A stretch of 64,000 nt of DNA from an uncultured Paracoccaceae bacterium (GTDB lineage Bacteria; Pseudomonadota; Alphaproteobacteria; Rhodobacterales; Rhodobacteraceae), in the NCBI GenBank assembly GCA_937924905.1, contig CALDUK010000019.1, forward strand, positions 62,001-126,000, read 5' to 3'. A program made the translations under genes and the position numbers. The notes beneath the pieces were generated by a model. That model had not been told where the DNA came from and did not search any database. It was given only the letters and a program-made list of their open reading frames with translations. This document shows positions 4,115 to 19,146 of this stretch, piece by piece; position 1 is the first letter of the stretch; each line of letters opens with the position of its first letter.

Positions 4115-5224
4115 TTGCAGACGGGCTGGACCCTTTCAGGCGTAGGGCATGGTGCCCTGTTCTTTGTGCTTATGTTCGGCGGGCTTTTTGCAAGCAACCG
4201 CGAACCAGAAGACGTGACCGTTTCAGACGTCACCGTGATTTCGGAAGAAGAATTTGCAGCCCTGACCCTGCCTGGTGCCGCGCCCGAGGCGCAAACCCAA
4301 GCGCCCGAAGTTTCGACACCCGAACCCGAGCTCGAGCTCGACGCCCCCGAAGCGCCGGCCGAAGACGCCGCGCCAAGCCTGCCGGAAAGCCCCGAGGTCG
4401 ATGTCCCCGAAGCGCCCGAGGCCCCGGATATCATCGTACCCGACCCGGTGCCGGGGGCCATCCCCGTTGAAACAACGCCACCTGTTCAGGTGGCTCCGTC
4501 CGATCTGGACGGCACATCCCTGGAACGCGATGCGGTGGCCGCCCCGGCCCCACGTGTCGCCGCCGTGCCGCAAGTTGCGCCACCGCCCGAAGCCGAAACC
4601 GCGCCCGAGGTGGTGCAGGACACCGCCCCCGAACCGACGCCCGAACCAGCGCCCGAGCCGGAATCCGAAGAGCCCGCCGCCCCGGAAGAAGCGAGCGACC
4701 GGATTGTGACCGAAGCAGAAGAAGTGGAAACCTTTGCGCCCGCCAGTTCGATGCGCCCCCGCGCGCGCCCAGCACGACCCGTGCGCCAGGCCGAAACACC
4801 CGCCGCCCCGGTTCAGGAAGAGCCAGCGCGCCCCAGCACCGATGACGCCGTTGCCGCGGCTTTGGGGGAAAGCGAACCGGAACAACCCGCACGGTCGGGG
4901 CCACCCCTGACGGGCGGCGAACGCGAAGGTCTGCGCGTGGCAGTCAGCAATTGCTGGAATGTCGGCAGTCTGTCGACCGATGCCCTGGGGACCACCGTTG
5001 TGGTGAGTGTCGAAATGGAACAATCCGGCAAACCGGTGACCGGTTCAATTCGCCTGGTCAGTTCTTCGGGCGGGTCGGGCGCGGCAGCACAACAAGCGTT
5101 TGACGCGGCGCGGCGCGCAATAATCCGCTGTGGCGCAAGAGGCTTTCCATTGCCGGTTGAAAAATTCGACCAATGGCGTGAAATCGAAATGACGTTCAAC
5201 CCGGAAGGGATGCAGTTCAGATGA
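4115..5224 (+). CDS. tolA: TolA-like energy-transducing envelope protein
   Basis: 369-residue protein in the tolA position. It has an N-terminal membrane anchor ([16 protein letters not shown]), then a long Pro/Glu/Ala-rich low-complexity linker spanning roughly residues 45-265 that bridges the periplasm. The compact C-terminal domain from about residue 270 contains NCWNVGSLS and FNPEGMQF. It uses a TTG start three bases after tolR; no ATG fits. The stop overlaps the tolB start. The repetitive linker yields long opposite-strand open frames that are composition artefacts. Family knowledge: the C-terminal domain contacts Pal and TolB. Confidence 0.88.
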
Positions 5225-6633
5225 CATACTTTGATGAGACGGCTATAAATGCGCGGTTTTTCCAGCGGGCGATGCGCAGGTTTCTTGCCCGCAAGAACAC
5301 AGGCCTGACGCGATGGATGGCTGCGTGTTTTCTGGCCGTGTCGATAGCCGCCCCTGCCGTCGCCCAGGACAGATCAGGCCCTTTGCGGATTGAGATCACC
5401 GAAGGTGTGATTGAACCTGTTCCGATCGCTGTCGCGCCGTTCCTTGCGGAAAACGCCGCCGCGTCAGAATTTGCGCGTGAGATCACCGGCGTTGTCGCCT
5501 CGGATCTTGTAGGCACAGGGCTGTTCCGCGATTTGCCGCGCGAAAGCTATATCAGCGAAGTCACAAATTTTGATGGCGAGGTCGCCTATGCCGACTGGAA
5601 GGCCATCAATGCCGAAGCCCTGGTGGTCGGCGCCGTGACCATGACGTCGGACAACCGGTTGTTGGTGAAGTTTCGTCTGTTCGATATTTTCACCGGCGCA
5701 CCGCTGGGCGACGGTTTGCAGTTTGCAGGCAGCACAAACAGTTGGCGGCGCGTGGCCCATAAAGTGGCCGATCAGGTGTACAGCCGGATCACGGGCGAAG
5801 ACGGGTATTTTGACAGCCGTGTTGTCTATGTCGAAGAGACCGGACCGAAGAATGCCCGCCAGAAACGGCTGGCAATCATGGATTATGACGGGGCGAATGT
5901 TCAGTTTCTGACGGACGCGTCGTCTATTGTCTTGGCCCCCCGGTTTTCGCCCACAGGCGACCGGGTGCTGTTCACCAGCTATGAAACCGGGTTTCCGCAG
6001 ATCTATGAGCTGGCCGTGGGTCAGGTGCAAAAGCGCGCGCTGTCCGAGCTGGATGCAGAAACCATGACATTCGCGCCGCGCTATGCGCCAAACGGAAGGA
6101 CTGTGGTGTATTCCGAAGCGCGCGGTGGCAATACTGATATCTTCCGGCTGGATTTGAACACGGGCGACCGCGTGCGGTTGACCAGCGCGCCGTCGATTGA
6201 AACCGCGCCCTCGTTTTCGCCGGACGGCAGTCAGATTGTGTTTGAAAGCGACCGGTCGGGGAACCAGCAGCTGTATGTTATGGGCTTGAATGGTGGCGAA
6301 CCAAAGCGGATCAGCTTTGGCCAGGGGCGCTATGGCACGCCGGTCTGGTCGCCGCGGGGCGATTTCATTGCGTTCACCAAACAGAACAACGGTCGGTTTC
6401 ATATCGGCGTGATGCGCACCGATGGATCGAACGAGCGTTTGTTGACTGCGTCCTTTCTGGACGAAGGCCCCACCTGGGCCCCCAATGGACGGGTGTTGAT
6501 GTTCACCCGTGAAAGCGCCGGGGCCGATGGCCAACCGGCCTTGTTCAGTGTTGATATTTCGGGACGCAATCTGCGCCGGGTGCCGACAGCAACGGCGGCG
6601 TCGGATCCAGCCTGGTCGCCGCTTTTGCCTTAG
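5221..6633 (+). CDS. tolB: Tol-Pal system beta-propeller protein TolB
   Basis: Periplasmic TolB: a signal peptide ending at AAPAVAQ, an N-terminal alpha/beta domain ([20 protein letters not shown]), and a C-terminal propeller with repeated blades of the SPDG/SPTGD type ([69 protein letters not shown]). It binds Pal and TolA. The ATG at 5221 overlaps the tolA stop (ATGA). An internal ATG at 5272 would give a more conventional signal peptide of about 32 residues, so the start is not settled. The usual tolB-pal adjacency is broken here by a leftward gene. Confidence 0.94.
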
Positions 6634-12438: not shown

Positions 12439-13443
12439 TCAGCGCGCTTGCTTTTGAAGCGCGTCCACCAACCCGGTAACGCCGAACCGGATCGGGTCTG
12501 TGGCGGGAACGCCAAATTCGGTCTCGATGTCGGACAGATAGCTTTTTGCGGCTGTCGCGTCGATTTTTGAGGTGTTGATCGAAAAGCCAGCCAGCTTGAT
12601 GTCCGGATTCGTCAGCGCGCCATGCAGCAGCGTGGCATCCACCACCTGTTTCAATGTTGGCATCGGATGGTCAACGCCGCGCATCTTTGTGCGCGTCGGC
12701 TCGTGGCAAACGATGAAACAATCTGGCTGACTGCCATGCAAGAGCCCCAGTGTGACGCCTGCAAAGGCTGGATGAAACAGAGACCCCTGACCTTCGACAA
12801 TTTGCCAGGCGTCCCGACCGGTCGACGGACAAAGGCTTTCAACAGCCCCTGACATGAAATCGCCGACGATGGCGTCCACCGCGATCCCTTCGCCCGAGAC
12901 CAGCGTTCCGGTTTGGCCTGTGGCGCAAAATTTTGCCAGCAGATTGCGACGTTCCATTTCACGGGTCAGCGCGACGCTGGTGAACATTTTGCCGACCGAG
13001 CAATCGGTGCCGACCGTCAACACGCGCTTGCCGGTTCGTTTCACACCACTTGCTGTGGAATAACTGCGTTGTGGGCGCCGCAGTTCGTGCAAGGTGCGGC
13101 CATGCTTGTCCGCCAGCGCCCGCAGGTCGCCCAAAGTGGCAAGTTCGACATGCATGCCCGCCGCGATGTCCAGCCCGGCCACCACTGCGTTTTCCAGATC
13201 CGAGACCCAGGTTACGGGCACCGTGCCGCCGGAATTGACCAACCCGACCACCAGGGTTTTCGCCCCGGCTGCAACCGCGTCTTCGGGTGTCATGTGTGGC
13301 AGGTTCAGCGTCGCCGAAGCGTTGGGTCGCGACCATTCGGCAATGCAAGCATCCTTGTCCCATGTCAGCACGCCCCTTGCCAACTTGATGGACAACTCGT
13401 CGTTCGCATCGCCCAGATAAAGCAAATACGGCTTTTGTATCAT
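12439..13443 (-). CDS. dgcN: DUF1611 family protein, DgcN-like (D-glutamate N-acetyltransferase)
   Basis: 334-residue DUF1611 protein with an N-terminal Rossmann-like domain (YLLYLGD...AKTLVVGLVNSGG). A C-terminal P-loop domain from about residue 140 opens with VLTVGTDCSVGKMFTSVAL, a nucleotide-binding motif. Characterised DgcN proteins acetylate D-glutamate in a catabolic route with the racemase DgcA; no dgcA is visible here. The gene is last in a leftward group after an aminotransferase and a membrane protein. It lies next to MurL/MurD2, which supports a D-Glu link. The family call is good; the substrate is inferred. Confidence 0.78.
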   Translation of the reverse strand: MIQKPYLLYLGDANDELSIKLARGVLTWDKDACIAEWSRPNASATLNLPHMTPEDAVAAGAKTLVVGLVNSGGTVPVTWVSDLENAVVAGLDIAAGMHVELATLGDLRALADKHGRTLHELRRPQRSYSTASGVKRTGKRVLTVGTDCSVGKMFTSVALTREMERRNLLAKFCATGQTGTLVSGEGIAVDAIVGDFMSGAVESLCPSTGRDAWQIVEGQGSLFHPAFAGVTLGLLHGSQPDCFIVCHEPTRTKMRGVDHPMPTLKQVVDATLLHGALTNPDIKLAGFSINTSKIDATAAKSYLSDIETEFGVPATDPIRFGVTGLVDALQKQAR

Positions 13444-13464
13444 GTGCCGGGGCCTCGCAGAATT

Positions 13465-14733
13465 TTAAGCGATACTAGGGCGCTTTTCCGCTTTTGTATG
13501 CCCCGTGTCTGTCGATGACAGCAAACTGTTCAAGTTACGGCATACCGTTTGCAGAAGATCGGTGCGCGGCAGAAAAACCAGCCGAACGTGTTCTTCATCA
13601 AAACTGTTGAAGGCCGACCCCGGCACCGTAAGAATGCCAAAGTCCTGAACCAGTTTGATGGCAAAGTCTTCGTCGGTCGCGAAGGCCGTCTTTTTCAGGT
13701 CGATGCGCGGGAAGACGTAAAACGCCCCTTTCGGTTCAACAAAAGACAGATGTTCAATCTGGCGAAGCCCGTCGCATAGTGCTGCGCGCTGCTGTATCAG
13801 CCGCTGCATGGTTGCATCTTCCAACCGTCCTGACGCGCTGGTATTCAAAAAAGCGATGGCCGAATGCATCGCCAAAACATTCGGGCAAAGCCGCAAAGCG
13901 GACAGCATGTTCAGCCCATCCAGAAAGCCCCGGCTTTCAGATAGATCGCCCGTAAGGGTCATCCAGCCGCAACGGTACCCTGCTGCAAAACCGTTTTTGG
14001 ACAATCCATCGAACGACAGACAAATCGCGCGCGGGTCCACTTGGTTAAGCACTTTGGCGAATGGGTAAAATTGCGCGTCGTCAAACAATATCTGGCTGTA
14101 TATTTCGTCGGAAAACGCCAGAAGATTGTTCTCTGAAACGAATTTGGCCAATTCGGTCAGCGCGGTGTCTGAATATACCGCCCCGGTCGGATTGTTCGGA
14201 TTGATCAGAACGATCGCTTTTGTCTTGTCGTTTACCTTGCTGCGAAGATCGGACAAGCTGGGCTGCCAGTCTTCAGCTTCGTCGCAAAGGTAGTAAACGG
14301 GCGTCGCACCGGTCAGTTTGATTGCAGCCGTCCAAAGCGGATAGTCGGGCGCAGGTACCAGCACTTCGTCGCCGCGCGAAAACGCGCATTGGCAGGCCAT
14401 CATAATCAGTTCGGACACACCATTGCCGATATAGATGTGATCGAACGGCACTTCCGGGCTGCCTTGATTTTGCAGCCGTTCCTGAACCTTGTGGACCAGT
14501 GTTTTCAAACCCCGACTGTCTGAATAGCTAAGCGATGCGGTGACCGCTTCTTTTGTGGCTTTCAAAACCTCGGCCGGTGGTTCAAAACCGAACGGGCCCG
14601 GATTGCCGATATGCAAGGGCAGGATATCTGTGCCATTCGCCGCGCATTTTTCAGCCTCAAGAAGCACGCGGCCCCTGATTTCATATTTAACCTCGGCCAG
14701 TTTACTTGGCAGACCAAGTGCTCGTTTCTCCAC
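13465..14733 (-). CDS. PLP-dependent class I/II aminotransferase (AlaA-like)
   Basis: 422-residue fold-type I aminotransferase. It shows LHIGNPGPFGFEPP, SYSDSRGLKTLV and the NPNNPTGAVY cofactor segment. The PLP lysine is in FDGLSKNGFAAGYRCGW, and RLVFLPRT near the C-terminus carries the carboxylate-binding Arg. It resembles alanine/glutamate-using AlaA/AlaC enzymes. The start is GTG at 14733, placed by a GGAGG site six bases upstream. It lies between dgcN and a membrane-anchored unknown, in one leftward operon. A role in interconverting Glu, 2-oxoglutarate or Ala in this island is inference. Confidence 0.85.
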   Translation of the reverse strand: MEKRALGLPSKLAEVKYEIRGRVLLEAEKCAANGTDILPLHIGNPGPFGFEPPAEVLKATKEAVTASLSYSDSRGLKTLVHKVQERLQNQGSPEVPFDHIYIGNGVSELIMMACQCAFSRGDEVLVPAPDYPLWTAAIKLTGATPVYYLCDEAEDWQPSLSDLRSKVNDKTKAIVLINPNNPTGAVYSDTALTELAKFVSENNLLAFSDEIYSQILFDDAQFYPFAKVLNQVDPRAICLSFDGLSKNGFAAGYRCGWMTLTGDLSESRGFLDGLNMLSALRLCPNVLAMHSAIAFLNTSASGRLEDATMQRLIQQRAALCDGLRQIEHLSFVEPKGAFYVFPRIDLKKTAFATDEDFAIKLVQDFGILTVPGSAFNSFDEEHVRLVFLPRTDLLQTVCRNLNSLLSSTDTGHTKAEKRPSIA

Positions 14734-14748
14734 AATGAACCTCCGCGG

Positions 14749-15417
14749 TCAGGTGGCAGCTTCCGTGATGTTCGCCTTTTGCGCCGTTGTTTTGGATTTC
14801 TGATAGGCGATATATCGGTCGATCAAAGCACCCTTACCGTCGTAATACTCGTAAATGTCCGGCCGGTATCCCGAATAGTCAGGCGACCTTAAATAGATCA
14901 GATACGGCGTGAGATGCGCATAGAGCGTACCGTTTTCTTTCTCATAATTCTGGTTTGGATAGTTGTCGACCGTGACCAAGGTGAAGATCCGCTCAACCAC
15001 TTCGGCCTGGTTCAGCTTGTCATTGCTGATGAGCACGCCAAGAAACTCGAAGAAATTCAAAAGCGGTCGGATTTCAGTCTGCCATGTGTCGTCCGCCAAT
15101 AGCGCACTGGGATCGGACCCAAAAGTATCCCGCAGCTGATCCGCCGTGACAGCTGGTTTGGCCAGCAATTTACAGCGATTTTCGTACTGGATGCTCCACC
15201 GGTCCATGACGTCAAAAAAGATGCGCGAGGTTTCCCCGGCCTGCGAAAGTTCAAACTGACGCCGGGCGCGTCTGAGTTGAATGGAGACATAAGCAAGCTG
15301 CGCGACGACCAGTATGATCCCAAAGATCCCGGTCAGCCCGGTCACGACCGTCCAGAACTCTTCCAGGTTAGTCGGGCTAACATACTGATAGTTTTTTATT
15401 TTTTCGAAAATCGTCAT
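14749..15417 (-). CDS. Single-span membrane protein, DUF4760-like, unknown function
   Basis: 222 residues with one membrane helix near residues 23-48 (VVTGLTGIFGIILVVAQLAYV). An RRARRQFELSQ stretch follows, then a long cytoplasmic helical domain containing DRWSIQYENRCKLL, LNFFEFLGVLI and YLRSPDYSGYRPDIYEYYDG. The layout (helix, basic linker, helical domain with a central NFFE motif) resembles DUF4760 proteins; no enzyme motif is visible. It is first in the leftward operon with the aminotransferase and dgcN and shares a 90-bp promoter region with the MurL operon. Function unknown. Confidence 0.6.
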   Translation of the reverse strand: MTIFEKIKNYQYVSPTNLEEFWTVVTGLTGIFGIILVVAQLAYVSIQLRRARRQFELSQAGETSRIFFDVMDRWSIQYENRCKLLAKPAVTADQLRDTFGSDPSALLADDTWQTEIRPLLNFFEFLGVLISNDKLNQAEVVERIFTLVTVDNYPNQNYEKENGTLYAHLTPYLIYLRSPDYSGYRPDIYEYYDGKGALIDRYIAYQKSKTTAQKANITEAAT

Positions 15418-15466
15418 TGGCTTCTGTCATCTGCTTCGCGGGCGTGTTGCATTGCGTTCAGACGGC

Positions 15467-15486
15467 TCGACATTTATATCGACATT
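15467..15486. promoter_or_regulatory. Tandem direct repeat in a divergent promoter
   Basis: The 8-mer TCGACATT occurs twice with a 12-bp period (15467-15474 and 15479-15486), separated by TATA. It lies in the 90-bp gap between the two divergent operons of the D-Glu island, 22 bp before the DUF4392 start. A spacing near one helical turn suits a regulator dimer or tandem binding. Not matched to a known regulator. Confidence 0.35.
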
Positions 15487-15507
15487 AACGCGTGTAGGGA
15501 CGATCGC

Positions 15508-16455
15508 ATGGGACGGCCTCAGGATCTTTTCAATAAACTTCACCAATTGATTGAACAACATGAAAATAGGGGCGTGATCGCCCGTCTGGCTGCCGTTGGC
15601 CATCTTCCACGCCCATTTTCGCAGGTTGCCCGCAGCATCGTGCAAGACCGCGGCGGGCGGATTGGGATTGTCACTGGGTTTTATGTGCCAGGGGCCGTTC
15701 CACCAAAACCTGAAACAGACGGCCCCATCGGGGCGGCGCAGCTTGCGCATTTTCTTCATCTTGGGGGATGGGATGTCGCGTTGATAACCGACGCGTTTTG
15801 CCAGACCGCCTTAAGCCGGTGCCGCGAGATTGTAGGCGGGACCTATCCGATCACCGTGCTTTCCGACGCGGCGGGCGTGGATGCCAAGCTTAAGGCGTGG
15901 CGCAAGGATAACGCCGTTCCCGGCCATTTGATTGCGATTGAACGGGCCGGTCCGAATAGAAGCGGCCAGATCATTAATATAGCCGGCGATGATATCACAT
16001 CATTCACGCCACCTTTGCATCGGCTGTTTCAACATCGGGATGACGGCAAACCGCTGACCATCAGTTTGGCCGATGGATTGAACGAAATCGGGGCCGAAAC
16101 TGTACGCAATGCTATGCTTGCGGTATCGCCCGATTTGGATCAGGCGCGACTTTGTGCGGTTGCAGTCGATCATCTGGTTTTGGGGTGCACAGCGAACATC
16201 GGCGCGGCGGGCCTTGCAGCGGCCCTTGCGATTGAAGACCCCGACCTGATTGAGAACCTGAAAACGTCTTTCCGCACCGAGTTATCCGATCTATTGATGG
16301 ATCGGCTTGCGGACGAGGAAATCGCAGTCGACGGGGTGAAACGCACATTTAGCAACCGGACCGTTGACGGCATTGATGCGCAACTGCTGAACAACGTCGT
16401 GCAGGCGCTGGTTCAGACCGCCACGACCCGGTCCATCTTGCAAAACGCGGAGTAA
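15508..16455 (+). CDS. DUF4392 protein, D-glutamate cyclase-like domain
   Basis: 315-residue protein matching the C-terminal domain of D-glutamate cyclase (human DGLUCY type), which interconverts D-Glu and 5-oxo-D-proline. Recognisable landmarks are GIVTGFYVPGAVPPKPETDGPIGAAQLA near residues 52-80, ALITD, SLADGLNEIGAETVRNAM in the middle and DHLVLGCTANIGAAGLAAAL later. The ATG at 15508 has AGGGA upstream and gives the expected N-terminus; earlier codons overlap the divergent gene. murL starts within a few bases of its stop. The domain call is good; the reaction in this organism is inferred. Confidence 0.75.
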   Translation: MGRPQDLFNKLHQLIEQHENRGVIARLAAVGHLPRPFSQVARSIVQDRGGRIGIVTGFYVPGAVPPKPETDGPIGAAQLAHFLHLGGWDVALITDAFCQTALSRCREIVGGTYPITVLSDAAGVDAKLKAWRKDNAVPGHLIAIERAGPNRSGQIINIAGDDITSFTPPLHRLFQHRDDGKPLTISLADGLNEIGAETVRNAMLAVSPDLDQARLCAVAVDHLVLGCTANIGAAGLAAALAIEDPDLIENLKTSFRTELSDLLMDRLADEEIAVDGVKRTFSNRTVDGIDAQLLNNVVQALVQTATTRSILQNAE

Positions 16456-16460
16456 GAGAC

Positions 16461-17807
16461 ATCGCATTCAAATTCACCGAAACACGCTTTGATGCAGATA
16501 CGCTTGAACTGGCCCTTTGGTACAAAGGACCAGACAGCGAAACCTTTTGCGAACGCGTGTCTTTTGCCCGCCTTCCAAAACTGGACCCAAGCGTCTTTCA
16601 AAGTCGCAATTTTGAGAATGCCGTCCGGGTTTTGCACATTCTGGCAGGCGTCAGTTATTACAAGCTGTATTTCGGCGCCGACATTGACAGCTCAATCTAT
16701 AACCTGAGCAGTGAAGAGGCTGATCTATTCAACGATGTTTATTCGGTCGGCCTGTCTGAATTTATCTTTCGGAATGGGCTGCGATTTCAGAATAGCCCTA
16801 TGTTCGCAGCTTCACCGAAAACGCTGGCCCCGGTTCAGGCACTTCCAAAAACAGGTGCTGCGCTGGTGCCATTGGGCGGCGGCAAGGATTCACTTGTAAC
16901 CCTTGAGGCGATGAAGCGTGTTACAGATACTTCGGCGTTTTTTGTTGGTGAAAATGCGATTGTCACCAATCTGGCGGATATTGCGGGTGTTGATTTGATT
17001 CAGGTGCGGCGCAAGCTGGACCCGCGTTTATTTGAATTGAATAAGGAAGGGCGCTTGAATGGGCATGTGCCTGTAACAGCAATCAACAGCGCCATCGCTG
17101 TGTTGACCGCGTTGTTGCACGGTTTTTCAAAAGTCGTTTTCTCGAACGAGCGTTCCGCTGATTTTGGCAATAACCTGTCAGGAGATGATTACGAGATCAA
17201 TCATCAATGGAGCAAATCAAGCACGTTTGAACGCAAGTTTGCGCATGTTGTGCGGTCTGGAATTGATCCGGAAATTCAGTACTTCTCGGCCCTGCGCGAT
17301 CTGAATGAAATGCAGATATTGCAGATTTTCAAAAACCTGACCGAATATCACCATCATTTCACCAGTTGTAATCGGGCCTTTCGCATACACGAAGCGTCAT
17401 CCGGTGGATGGTGCGGTGAATGTGAAAAATGCGCCTTCGTTTTTCTGGCCGGAAGTGCAACGATTGGCCATGAAACGATGCTGGCAATTTTCAAGAAAAA
17501 CCTGTTTCTGGACGATGCACTTGTGCCCGCGTTTCTAGGACTGTGCGGGCTGGCCGGTGAACGAAAGCCATTTGAATGCGTTGGCGAAACTGATGAATGC
17601 CGCGCCGCCGCACAAGAGCTTTTGCGCGACCCAGCCATTGCGGCCACACCGGTGGGAAAACACCTGACAGAAGAGTTTTCGCGCCTTGGCGAAGACTACC
17701 CCACGCTGGACGCAACGCTTCGTCAAAGCTATACACCTTTGGGCCTGGGGGCTGAAACCATCGGCGACTTACTGTCAAAGCTTGGGCAAACCCATGCCCC
17801 CGCATAG
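16461..17807 (+). CDS. murl: UDP-MurNAc-L-Ala-L-Glu epimerase MurL, probably with a non-AUG (ATC) start
   Basis: MurL family: epimerises L-Glu to D-Glu on UDP-MurNAc-L-Ala-L-Glu, replacing glutamate racemase. The protein has the PP-loop-like LVPLGGGKDSLVTLEAM, NERSADFGN and a Cys pair in SGGWCGECEKCAFVFLA. The first canonical start, GTG at 16557, would cut into a plausible domain: the frame upstream encodes FKFTETRFDADTLELALWY, like the normal MurL N-terminus. No ATG, GTG or TTG exists there. ATC at 16461 lies 8 nt after GGAG and five bases after the DUF4392 stop, so an ATC start coupled to that gene is proposed. The symbol is murL (MurL), not racemase murI. Confidence 0.82.
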   Translation: MAFKFTETRFDADTLELALWYKGPDSETFCERVSFARLPKLDPSVFQSRNFENAVRVLHILAGVSYYKLYFGADIDSSIYNLSSEEADLFNDVYSVGLSEFIFRNGLRFQNSPMFAASPKTLAPVQALPKTGAALVPLGGGKDSLVTLEAMKRVTDTSAFFVGENAIVTNLADIAGVDLIQVRRKLDPRLFELNKEGRLNGHVPVTAINSAIAVLTALLHGFSKVVFSNERSADFGNNLSGDDYEINHQWSKSSTFERKFAHVVRSGIDPEIQYFSALRDLNEMQILQIFKNLTEYHHHFTSCNRAFRIHEASSGGWCGECEKCAFVFLAGSATIGHETMLAIFKKNLFLDDALVPAFLGLCGLAGERKPFECVGETDECRAAAQELLRDPAIAATPVGKHLTEEFSRLGEDYPTLDATLRQSYTPLGLGAETIGDLLSKLGQTHAPA

Positions 17808-19146
17808 GTTCCTGTTGTGGGGTATTGGTCGGGAAAACCAAGCCTATCTTCAGTATCTTGAGCAGACCGCGTGGGATGGCGAGGTGCTGCTATTTGATGA
17901 AGGTGAGAGAACACCTGAGCAGGTTGAATTTCTGTCGCGCCTACGTTTTGCAGTCAGCGCGGTCAGCGATGTTGATGACGCATTGAAGACTGTTGATTTG
18001 CTGATGCGGTCACCGGGCGTTTCACCTTACAAGGCGTCCATACAACGTTTTTTAAAAGCCGGGGGCCAGACGACAACACCCACAGCTGTGGCGCTACGGC
18101 TTTTGAAATCGCGTGGAATTCGCGTTGTTGGTGTCACAGGAACGAATGGAAAAAGTTCGACCTGCACCATGCTTGGATGTGTTTTCGCAGCGGCCGCGCA
18201 AACGTGTATTGTTGCCGGAAACATCGGAAAACCGCTTATCTCGCTTTTGGATGATGGGACCGATCTGAGCGACTTGTTGATCGTTTTGGAACTGTCCAGC
18301 TATCAGATTTTTGATTTGGACATCGCACCGGATTATTTGATATTTTTGAATCTGTTTGTTGACCATGTCGAATGGCACAAGACCGACGTTAACTATAAGG
18401 CCGACAAGCTTTCGATTCTAACCAAACCCGGCATTCTTCAGTCTTTTGTGCATCCGGATGTCTTCAACCTTTGCAGCAAGGAAGCTGGAAATATTTCCAC
18501 CTTTGCCATTCCGTCTGACACGGAAAAGAACGAACAACGTTTGAACCACGGCACCTCGCAAATTGACTTGAACGGGTCAATTGCGGGCGCAAATCATCAC
18601 ATGCTGCAAAATGCTTCTGCTGTCGCGGCAATGGCTGGAACACTGGGGATTTCTGGCGATGTTATTGAAAAGGGGTTGCGGGTTTTCGCGGGGCTTGATC
18701 ACCGGTTGCAGGTGATTGGTCAAATTGAAGGCACCACATTTGTGGATGACAGTATATCGACAACACCAGAATCCGTTTTGGCCGCATTGGACAGTTTTCC
18801 GGGCAAGCGCGTCCATCTTTTTCTTGGTGGCTATGATCGCGGCTTGGATTACGCGTCACTTTTGACTGCTATGTCCAATTACAAGATTGCTACCTTGATC
18901 CTAATGGGGGATGTCGGGAAGCGGTTGCGGGCCGAGATTGAAAATCTCCACCCTGCCCCAACTGCCCTTAATATAAAGACTGTAAAAGACCTTTGTCAGT
19001 CTTTGGATGGCGTGCATTTTGCACAAGACGACGTTGTTTTGCTGTCACCGGGCGCATCCAGTTTTGACAGCTATCGCGACTATATCCACCGCGGTCAGGC
19101 TTTTGCCGAAGAAGTTGCGCGCGCGACGTCCAAACGCGGGGCATAG
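17794..19146 (+). CDS. murD2: UDP-N-acetylmuramoyl-L-alanine--L-glutamate ligase MurD2
   Basis: Mur ligase of about 450 residues: an N-terminal Rossmann domain (FLLWGIGRENQAYLQYL), the central ATP site VTGTNGKSSTCTML, and LELSSYQIFDLD. The C-terminal domain has FAGLDHRLQVIG and FVDDSISTTPESVLAAL, as in MurD. MurD2 enzymes add L-Glu instead of D-Glu to UDP-MurNAc-L-Ala and pair with MurL. The ATG at 17794 overlaps the end of murL by 14 bp; the frame extends upstream inside murL without similarity. Distinguishing MurD2 from MurD rests on the murL partnership rather than on a single residue. Confidence 0.85.
   Translation: MPPHRFLLWGIGRENQAYLQYLEQTAWDGEVLLFDEGERTPEQVEFLSRLRFAVSAVSDVDDALKTVDLLMRSPGVSPYKASIQRFLKAGGQTTTPTAVALRLLKSRGIRVVGVTGTNGKSSTCTMLGCVFAAAAQTCIVAGNIGKPLISLLDDGTDLSDLLIVLELSSYQIFDLDIAPDYLIFLNLFVDHVEWHKTDVNYKADKLSILTKPGILQSFVHPDVFNLCSKEAGNISTFAIPSDTEKNEQRLNHGTSQIDLNGSIAGANHHMLQNASAVAAMAGTLGISGDVIEKGLRVFAGLDHRLQVIGQIEGTTFVDDSISTTPESVLAALDSFPGKRVHLFLGGYDRGLDYASLLTAMSNYKIATLILMGDVGKRLRAEIENLHPAPTALNIKTVKDLCQSLDGVHFAQDDVVLLSPGASSFDSYRDYIHRGQAFAEEVARATSKRGA

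Follow-up and report, generated by a model that had tools for sequence, protein, structure and literature searches.

In Xanthomonas oryzae, the glutamate of the cell wall enters through MurD2, which adds L-glutamate (L-Glu), and MurL, which epimerizes it (XOO_1320/XOO_1319; PMC8788868). A glutamate residue of MurD2, E197, sets the L-Glu preference, and the E197D replacement alters stereospecificity (PMC8788868). Among the classical enzymes, MurD, MurE and MurF are reported to interact with MurG and MreB in Thermotoga (PMC6420597, PMC4929429), and inhibition of DNA gyrase by MurI has been reported for several bacteria (PMC10886550). Because Mur ligases are essential, noncatalytic roles such as scaffolding are hard to test. 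Here, we describe a MurL-MurD2 locus in a window of 64,000 nucleotides (nt) from an uncultured, marine-type Paracoccaceae bacterium (assembly GCA_937924905.1, contig CALDUK010000019.1, positions 62,001 to 126,000, forward strand); "window" means this whole stretch. The MurD2-MurL pathway itself is already known, with Rhodobacteraceae not among the host groups listed in one review of it. The new element is a truncated and catalytically dead MurD, which is retained in the same genome on a contig other than that of the window.

A dead MurD is retained in the cell wall cluster

In the division and cell wall (dcw) cluster of the window's genome, the gene order is murF-mraY-DUF6524-murD-talB-priA (contig C43), in which DUF6524 and talB are names that we assign from reading the sequences. 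The order of murF, mraY, the small gene, murD and priA is the same as in the genus sisters, and the MurD product is 61 to 66% identical to those of genus relatives. The protein lacks the entire C-terminal domain, no trace of which is found downstream, and it scores 58 bits against the canonical MurD cut-off of 212. Its P-loop changed from GSNGKSTT to GSRRRSKA and its carbamyl-lysine to methionine, with further motif changes from NIGRG to ADHSG, DHLDRHG to DTEQHG and NHQN to DQIC. Judged by these residues, the dcw MurD cannot be a ligase.

The changes are unevenly distributed. Among the columns invariant across orders, 34 of 81 were changed, versus only 7 of the 68 invariant in the family alone (Fisher p = 1.6e-5); functional controls had 0 to 3 changes of 81 to 84. 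Neutral simulation to an equal loss changed 28 of the 68 family-only columns and produced 4.8 stops, and none of 500 runs matched the observed pattern. Under neutrality, the probability of having no stop is about 0.01 each for this MurD and for that of Rhodobacteraceae bacterium 63075, and codon models reject omega = 1 for the truncated MurD. At the level of sequence, these tests show purifying selection on noncatalytic residues of the dcw MurD.

Truncation and loss of MurD recur with MurL-MurD2

MurD is cut at the same domain boundary in Rhodobacteraceae bacteria NBU2976 and 63075, Nocardioides phosphati and Galbitalea sp. SE-J8, all of which are MurL-MurD2 bacteria, and with the window's genome included, the open frames in the five genomes span about 325 to 339 codons. 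The ATP site of the truncated protein is intact in NBU2976 and destroyed in 63075. A single origin of the three Rhodobacteraceae truncations was rejected in the tree analysis (approximately unbiased [AU] test, p = 0.0002), while one clade of the window genome's copy with that of 63075 was not (AU p = 0.09). In other genomes murD is gone and mraY adjoins ftsW; these are ten Lysobacterales-type gammaproteobacterial genomes including Marinicella, two Micromonosporaceae, and all but one of the other alphaproteobacterial genomes checked. In an alphaproteobacterial metagenome-assembled genome (MAG), MAG_CA1, MurL and MurD2 occupy the very position of murD, flanked by mraY and ftsW, and thus replace it in place (L214:7161-10855).

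The full-length MurI of 63075 lost Cys70, Asn71, Thr195 and Tyr39 (alignment numbering), and its changes are concentrated in the catalytic motifs (p = 0.005), while that of NBU2976 keeps both catalytic cysteines and carries PIG in place of PYG. Gyrase inhibition is a possible reason for keeping a dead MurI.

MurL-MurD2 is very probably the route to wall D-glutamate

No PF01177 or TIGR00067 match to murI was found in the window's genome, whose assembly is 94% complete, although murI is present in 56 of 61 family genomes and in all four genus sisters. MurD2 is the only full-length MurD of this genome. Its catalytic set is intact (P-loop GTNGKSS, VDH, and DK with carbamyl-lysine K198), and it carries the MurD2-type Ile at Escherichia coli (Ec) K319 and Arg at Ec K348 (R358 in X. 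oryzae [Xoo]), the latter shared by 71 of 72 other MurL-linked MurD2 proteins. Since murI is missing and MurD2 is the only intact MurD, MurL-MurD2 is very probably the organism's route to the D-glutamate (D-Glu) of its wall. The initial annotation had proposed that D-Glu is made only at the nucleotide level and called for a genome search for murI and a second murD; the search returned no murI and a second murD that is truncated and dead, so that an intact murI together with a canonical murD, which would have spoken against the proposal, is absent, and the proposal is most likely right.

In other families of the class, murI is likewise missing from all 15 full-strength MurL genomes found, and in nearly all of them the strongest MurD adjoins MurL (it is on another contig in two or three fragmented assemblies). 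Therefore, the Xanthomonas biochemistry gives the best reading, with MurD2 adding L-Glu and MurL epimerizing it. Four other Rhodobacteraceae genomes (G001, G015, G022 and G028, two of them 99% complete) have no TIGR00067 murI, and G001 and G015 also have no MurL. A complete alphaproteobacterial genome that has canonical murD but gave no match to murI contains a partial MurL-like match of 103 bits (L046, G189:C3:135838-136326); this protein is perhaps a MurL relative in another role.

MurL keeps all invariant columns of its family, including GGGKDS and a Cys-rich motif (NF041275 E 5.5e-111), and is linked to MurD2 by overlapping genes in a genome with no TIGR00067 match. Its score is below the 700-bit equivalog cut-off of NF041275, a model built on Xanthomonadales; the other alphaproteobacterial MurLs found all score below this cut-off as well. 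The AlphaFold2 model of MurL is confident from residue 1 (predicted local distance difference test, 90.6). A fold search with this model gave weak matches only, none below E 0.001, and some of them were nucleotide-binding alpha/beta proteins of PP-loop/HUP-like type (pantothenate synthetase, argininosuccinate synthase, PH1257). GGGKDS resembles the PP-loop of TtuA; this likeness and the ATP-binding proteins among the weak fold matches agree with the adenylation proposed for the substrate.

Organization and probable acquisition of the module

Families were assigned by hidden Markov model (HMM) scans of the window proteins. The six genes named in the initial annotation are all present where it placed them, with the families it gave, as is the 90-bp gap between the divergent gene sets (Table 1). 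MurL and MurD2 overlap by 14 nt, and the stop codon plus 5 nt lie between DUF4392 and MurL. In the gap, a promoter scan found no consensus site, and promoter and terminator scans gave no signal above shuffles. The HMM scan assigned no family to the membrane protein, with DUF4760 as a weak match only (E 0.01).

Table 1. Features of the MurL-MurD2 locus and of the related MurD and MurI remnants
Feature	Position	Strand	Size	Evidence and remarks
DgcN-like DUF1611 protein	12439..13443	-	334 aa	NF041892 455 bits, PF07755; neighbor, probably outside the conserved module
Class I/II pyridoxal phosphate aminotransferase	13465..14733	-	422 aa	PF00155 174 bits; 47% homologue beside the module in 63075
Small membrane protein	14749..15417	-	222 aa	64% (NBU2976) and 49% (63075) homologues in the same place
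Divergent intergenic region, presumed promoters	15418..15507	.	90 bp	Sequence
DUF4392 (D-glutamate-cyclase-like)	15508..16455	+	315 aa	PF14336 141 bits
Inferred murL ribosome-binding site and nonstandard start (GGAG, 8 nt, ATC)	16449..16463	+		DNA alignment
MurL	16461..17807	+		NF041275 371 bits
MurD2	17794..19146	+		TIGR01087 267 bits, over cut-off
Truncated MurD, dcw cluster	L030:7965-8963 = G000:C43:19964-20962		332 aa	Alignment, HMM; other contig than the window
MurI, full-length, catalytically dead	L178:1471-2280	-		Rhodobacteraceae 63075; alignment
Truncated MurD-like protein, ruined P-loop, mraY-ftsW slot	L199:4944-5927	-	~325 aa	One of two actinobacteria (Nocardioides phosphati and Galbitalea sp. 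SE-J8)
Truncated MurD-like protein, ruined P-loop, mraY-ftsW slot	L200:~4627-5601	+	~325 aa	The other of these two actinobacteria

The arrangement of a membrane protein gene diverging from DUF4392-MurL-MurD2 recurs in NBU2976 (L080) and 63075 (L081), and the aminotransferase accompanies it in 63075 only. This recurrence in two more Rhodobacteraceae shows that the gene grouping is more than chance. The three MurLs form one clade (support 100/99); the genes for MurL, MurD2 and the membrane protein are low in G+C (0.50 to 0.51, compared with 0.57 in the window as a whole); and MurL is rare, as it was detected in 2 of the 395 genomes of the family and is absent from the four genus sisters. Together with the recurrence, these features fit a horizontal acquisition of the DUF4392-MurL-MurD2 module.

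Homology and the structure model place the start of MurL at ATC 16461, not at GTG 16557, the start of the listed open reading frame, upstream of which murL has no in-frame ATG, GTG or TTG. In both the window and NBU2976 (L080 9989-10003), GGAG is followed by eight bases that include the DUF4392 stop codon and then by ATC or ATT, respectively. It seems that murL is translated from a nonstandard AUC start (AUU in NBU2976), which may allow translational control. AUU is the start codon of infC in E. coli. A programmed frameshift from DUF4392 into MurL was considered and rejected, as no slippery site was seen by eye and ATC or ATT behind GGAG is the better start.

Proposed explanation and alternatives

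We propose that the horizontally acquired DUF4392-MurL-MurD2 module took over D-Glu incorporation, which would have freed MurI and the catalytic function of MurD from selection. murI, which is missing from the assembly, would then have been lost, and the murD behind mraY would have shed its C-terminal domain and active site while its frame stayed open and its noncatalytic residues were preserved. The truncated protein would be kept as a pseudo-enzyme with a structural part in the complex that builds the wall on the cytoplasmic side (MraY, MurG, MreB and other Mur ligases). We give this explanation a probability of roughly two in three. Such a scaffold role is plausible in view of the published interactions of the ligases MurD, MurE and MurF with MurG and MreB. 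The truncated MurD is probably a scaffold in an MraY/FtsW/MurG complex. The enzyme activities and the pseudo-enzyme role are predictions from sequence.

Several observations weigh against this explanation. Many MurL bacteria have lost murD cleanly, so that not all of them can require MurD as a scaffold. The active-site residues of the NBU2976 MurD are mostly intact, so that this case may be recent, and the column test is weak for 63075 (p = 0.08, simulation 0.04). The synonymous divergence (dS) is saturated and each branch includes time as a functional enzyme, which leaves the claim of selection resting on the column test. In addition, the missing murI could sit in an assembly gap, and at the position of Ec D182/Xoo E197 the MurD2 proteins of the window, NBU2976 and 63075 have Asp, in contrast to Glu in 69 of 72 other MurL-linked MurD2 proteins.

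A different account of the island, which we regard as possible but unlikely, is disposal or recycling: because MurD2 cannot reuse D-Glu from wall turnover, DUF4392 would cyclize it to 5-oxo-D-proline, DgcN would acetylate it and the aminotransferase would feed central metabolism. The DUF4392 protein keeps all six metal-binding acids (E69, D71, E145, D189, E193 and D287, conserved columns in the alignment to TON_0340, 4dwz), and its gene runs in the same direction as MurL-MurD2 in each of the three Rhodobacteraceae; a proteobacterial MAG outside their clade also has DUF4392 directly upstream of MurL (L126). The mouse homologue is a D-glutamate cyclase (PMC5339696), which is the likeliest activity here as well, but the archaeal protein TON_0340 behaved as a phosphatase (PMC5132392), and most MurL-MurD2 loci examined have no DUF4392. 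Although dgcN is part of a D-Glu racemization pathway found mostly in Alphaproteobacteria (PMC12363236), its inclusion in the core of the island was rejected: it is absent from the two homologous Rhodobacteraceae loci, its G+C content of 0.593 is host-like, and no gene for the partner racemase DgcA lies in the island (the wider genome was not searched for DgcA). DgcN is probably a neighbor of the module.

The truncated MurD might instead be a pseudogene observed partway through its decay, without function and with a frame still open by luck or recency. A dead active site, a missing domain, the recent look of the NBU2976 case and the total loss of murD elsewhere, which resembles an end point, would all be expected from decay. 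Nevertheless, five genomes with open frames of similar length end at the identical domain boundary, the window genome's copy changed a quarter of the family-conserved columns expected (7 versus 28), the absence of stops is improbable under neutrality in the window genome's copy and in that of 63075, and omega = 1 is rejected. We therefore consider decay doubtful, and the retention of MurD as a structural partner accounts better for these data.

It is improbable that D-Glu still comes from an unseen MurI or D-amino-acid transaminase, with MurL-MurD2 as an accessory. The assembly is incomplete, the NBU2976 MurI keeps its catalytic cysteines, and the island aminotransferase belongs to PF00155, not to PF01063 (the D-amino-acid transaminase type), with no wider search for such a transaminase made. 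However, with the only canonical MurD dead, ligation of free D-Glu would be possible by MurD2 alone, the 63075 MurI is dead, and murI is missing from all 15 MurL genomes of other families. Finally, a binning or assembly error that brought in a foreign MurL contig or broken murD is very hard to credit even for a genome in 73 contigs, given the contamination of 0.42%, the genus-typical gene order around the broken murD, and the pairing of MurL-MurD2 with truncated MurD in NBU2976 and 63075, independent records not marked as MAGs.

If the truncated MurD is such a pseudo-enzyme, it would expose a noncatalytic role of MurD, and likewise one of MurI, whose full-length copy in 63075 is dead; in ordinary bacteria such a role is inseparable from catalysis; with catalysis moved to MurD2-MurL while the dead MurD stayed, evolution would have separated the two functions. 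The genomes can be read as a graded series in the replacement of an essential wall enzyme, and MurL as a target would extend to Rhodobacteraceae. Whether there is a new class of cell wall pseudo-enzyme, in which MurD, after takeover by MurD2-MurL, is reduced time and again in some lineages to the N-terminal and central domains and retained for a structural function in the mraY-ftsW wall-synthesis machinery, is in our judgment evenly balanced. Our searches of the open-access literature turned up neither a truncated, inactive MurD that is conserved nor MurL in Rhodobacteraceae.

Comparison with known systems

Compared with canonical MurD, the dcw copy is orthologous by synteny and tree, yet it has lost the C-terminal domain, the P-loop and the carbamyl-lysine. 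The MurI frame of 63075 is full-length and 59% identical to functional MurI, with the catalytic Cys, Asn and Thr lost, and no MurI was found in the window's genome. DUF4392 has the complete domain in common with the mouse cyclase and TON_0340, as well as the six metal-binding acids, but here the protein stands alone and its gene shares an operon with MurL-MurD2. The DgcN-like protein matches the D-Glu N-acetyltransferase model NF041892 over its full length, just under the equivalog cut-off of 480 bits, with no DgcA beside it. With the X. oryzae MurD2-MurL system, the locus has in common the adjacent MurL and MurD2, the lack of murI, the invariant MurL motifs including GGGKDS, and the MurD2 residues Arg and Ile at Ec K348 and K319. 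It differs in its separate, well supported Rhodobacteraceae MurL clade, in the linkage to DUF4392, in the Asp at the Xoo E197 position of MurD2, and in keeping a dead truncated MurD, whereas murD was lost in Lysobacterales.

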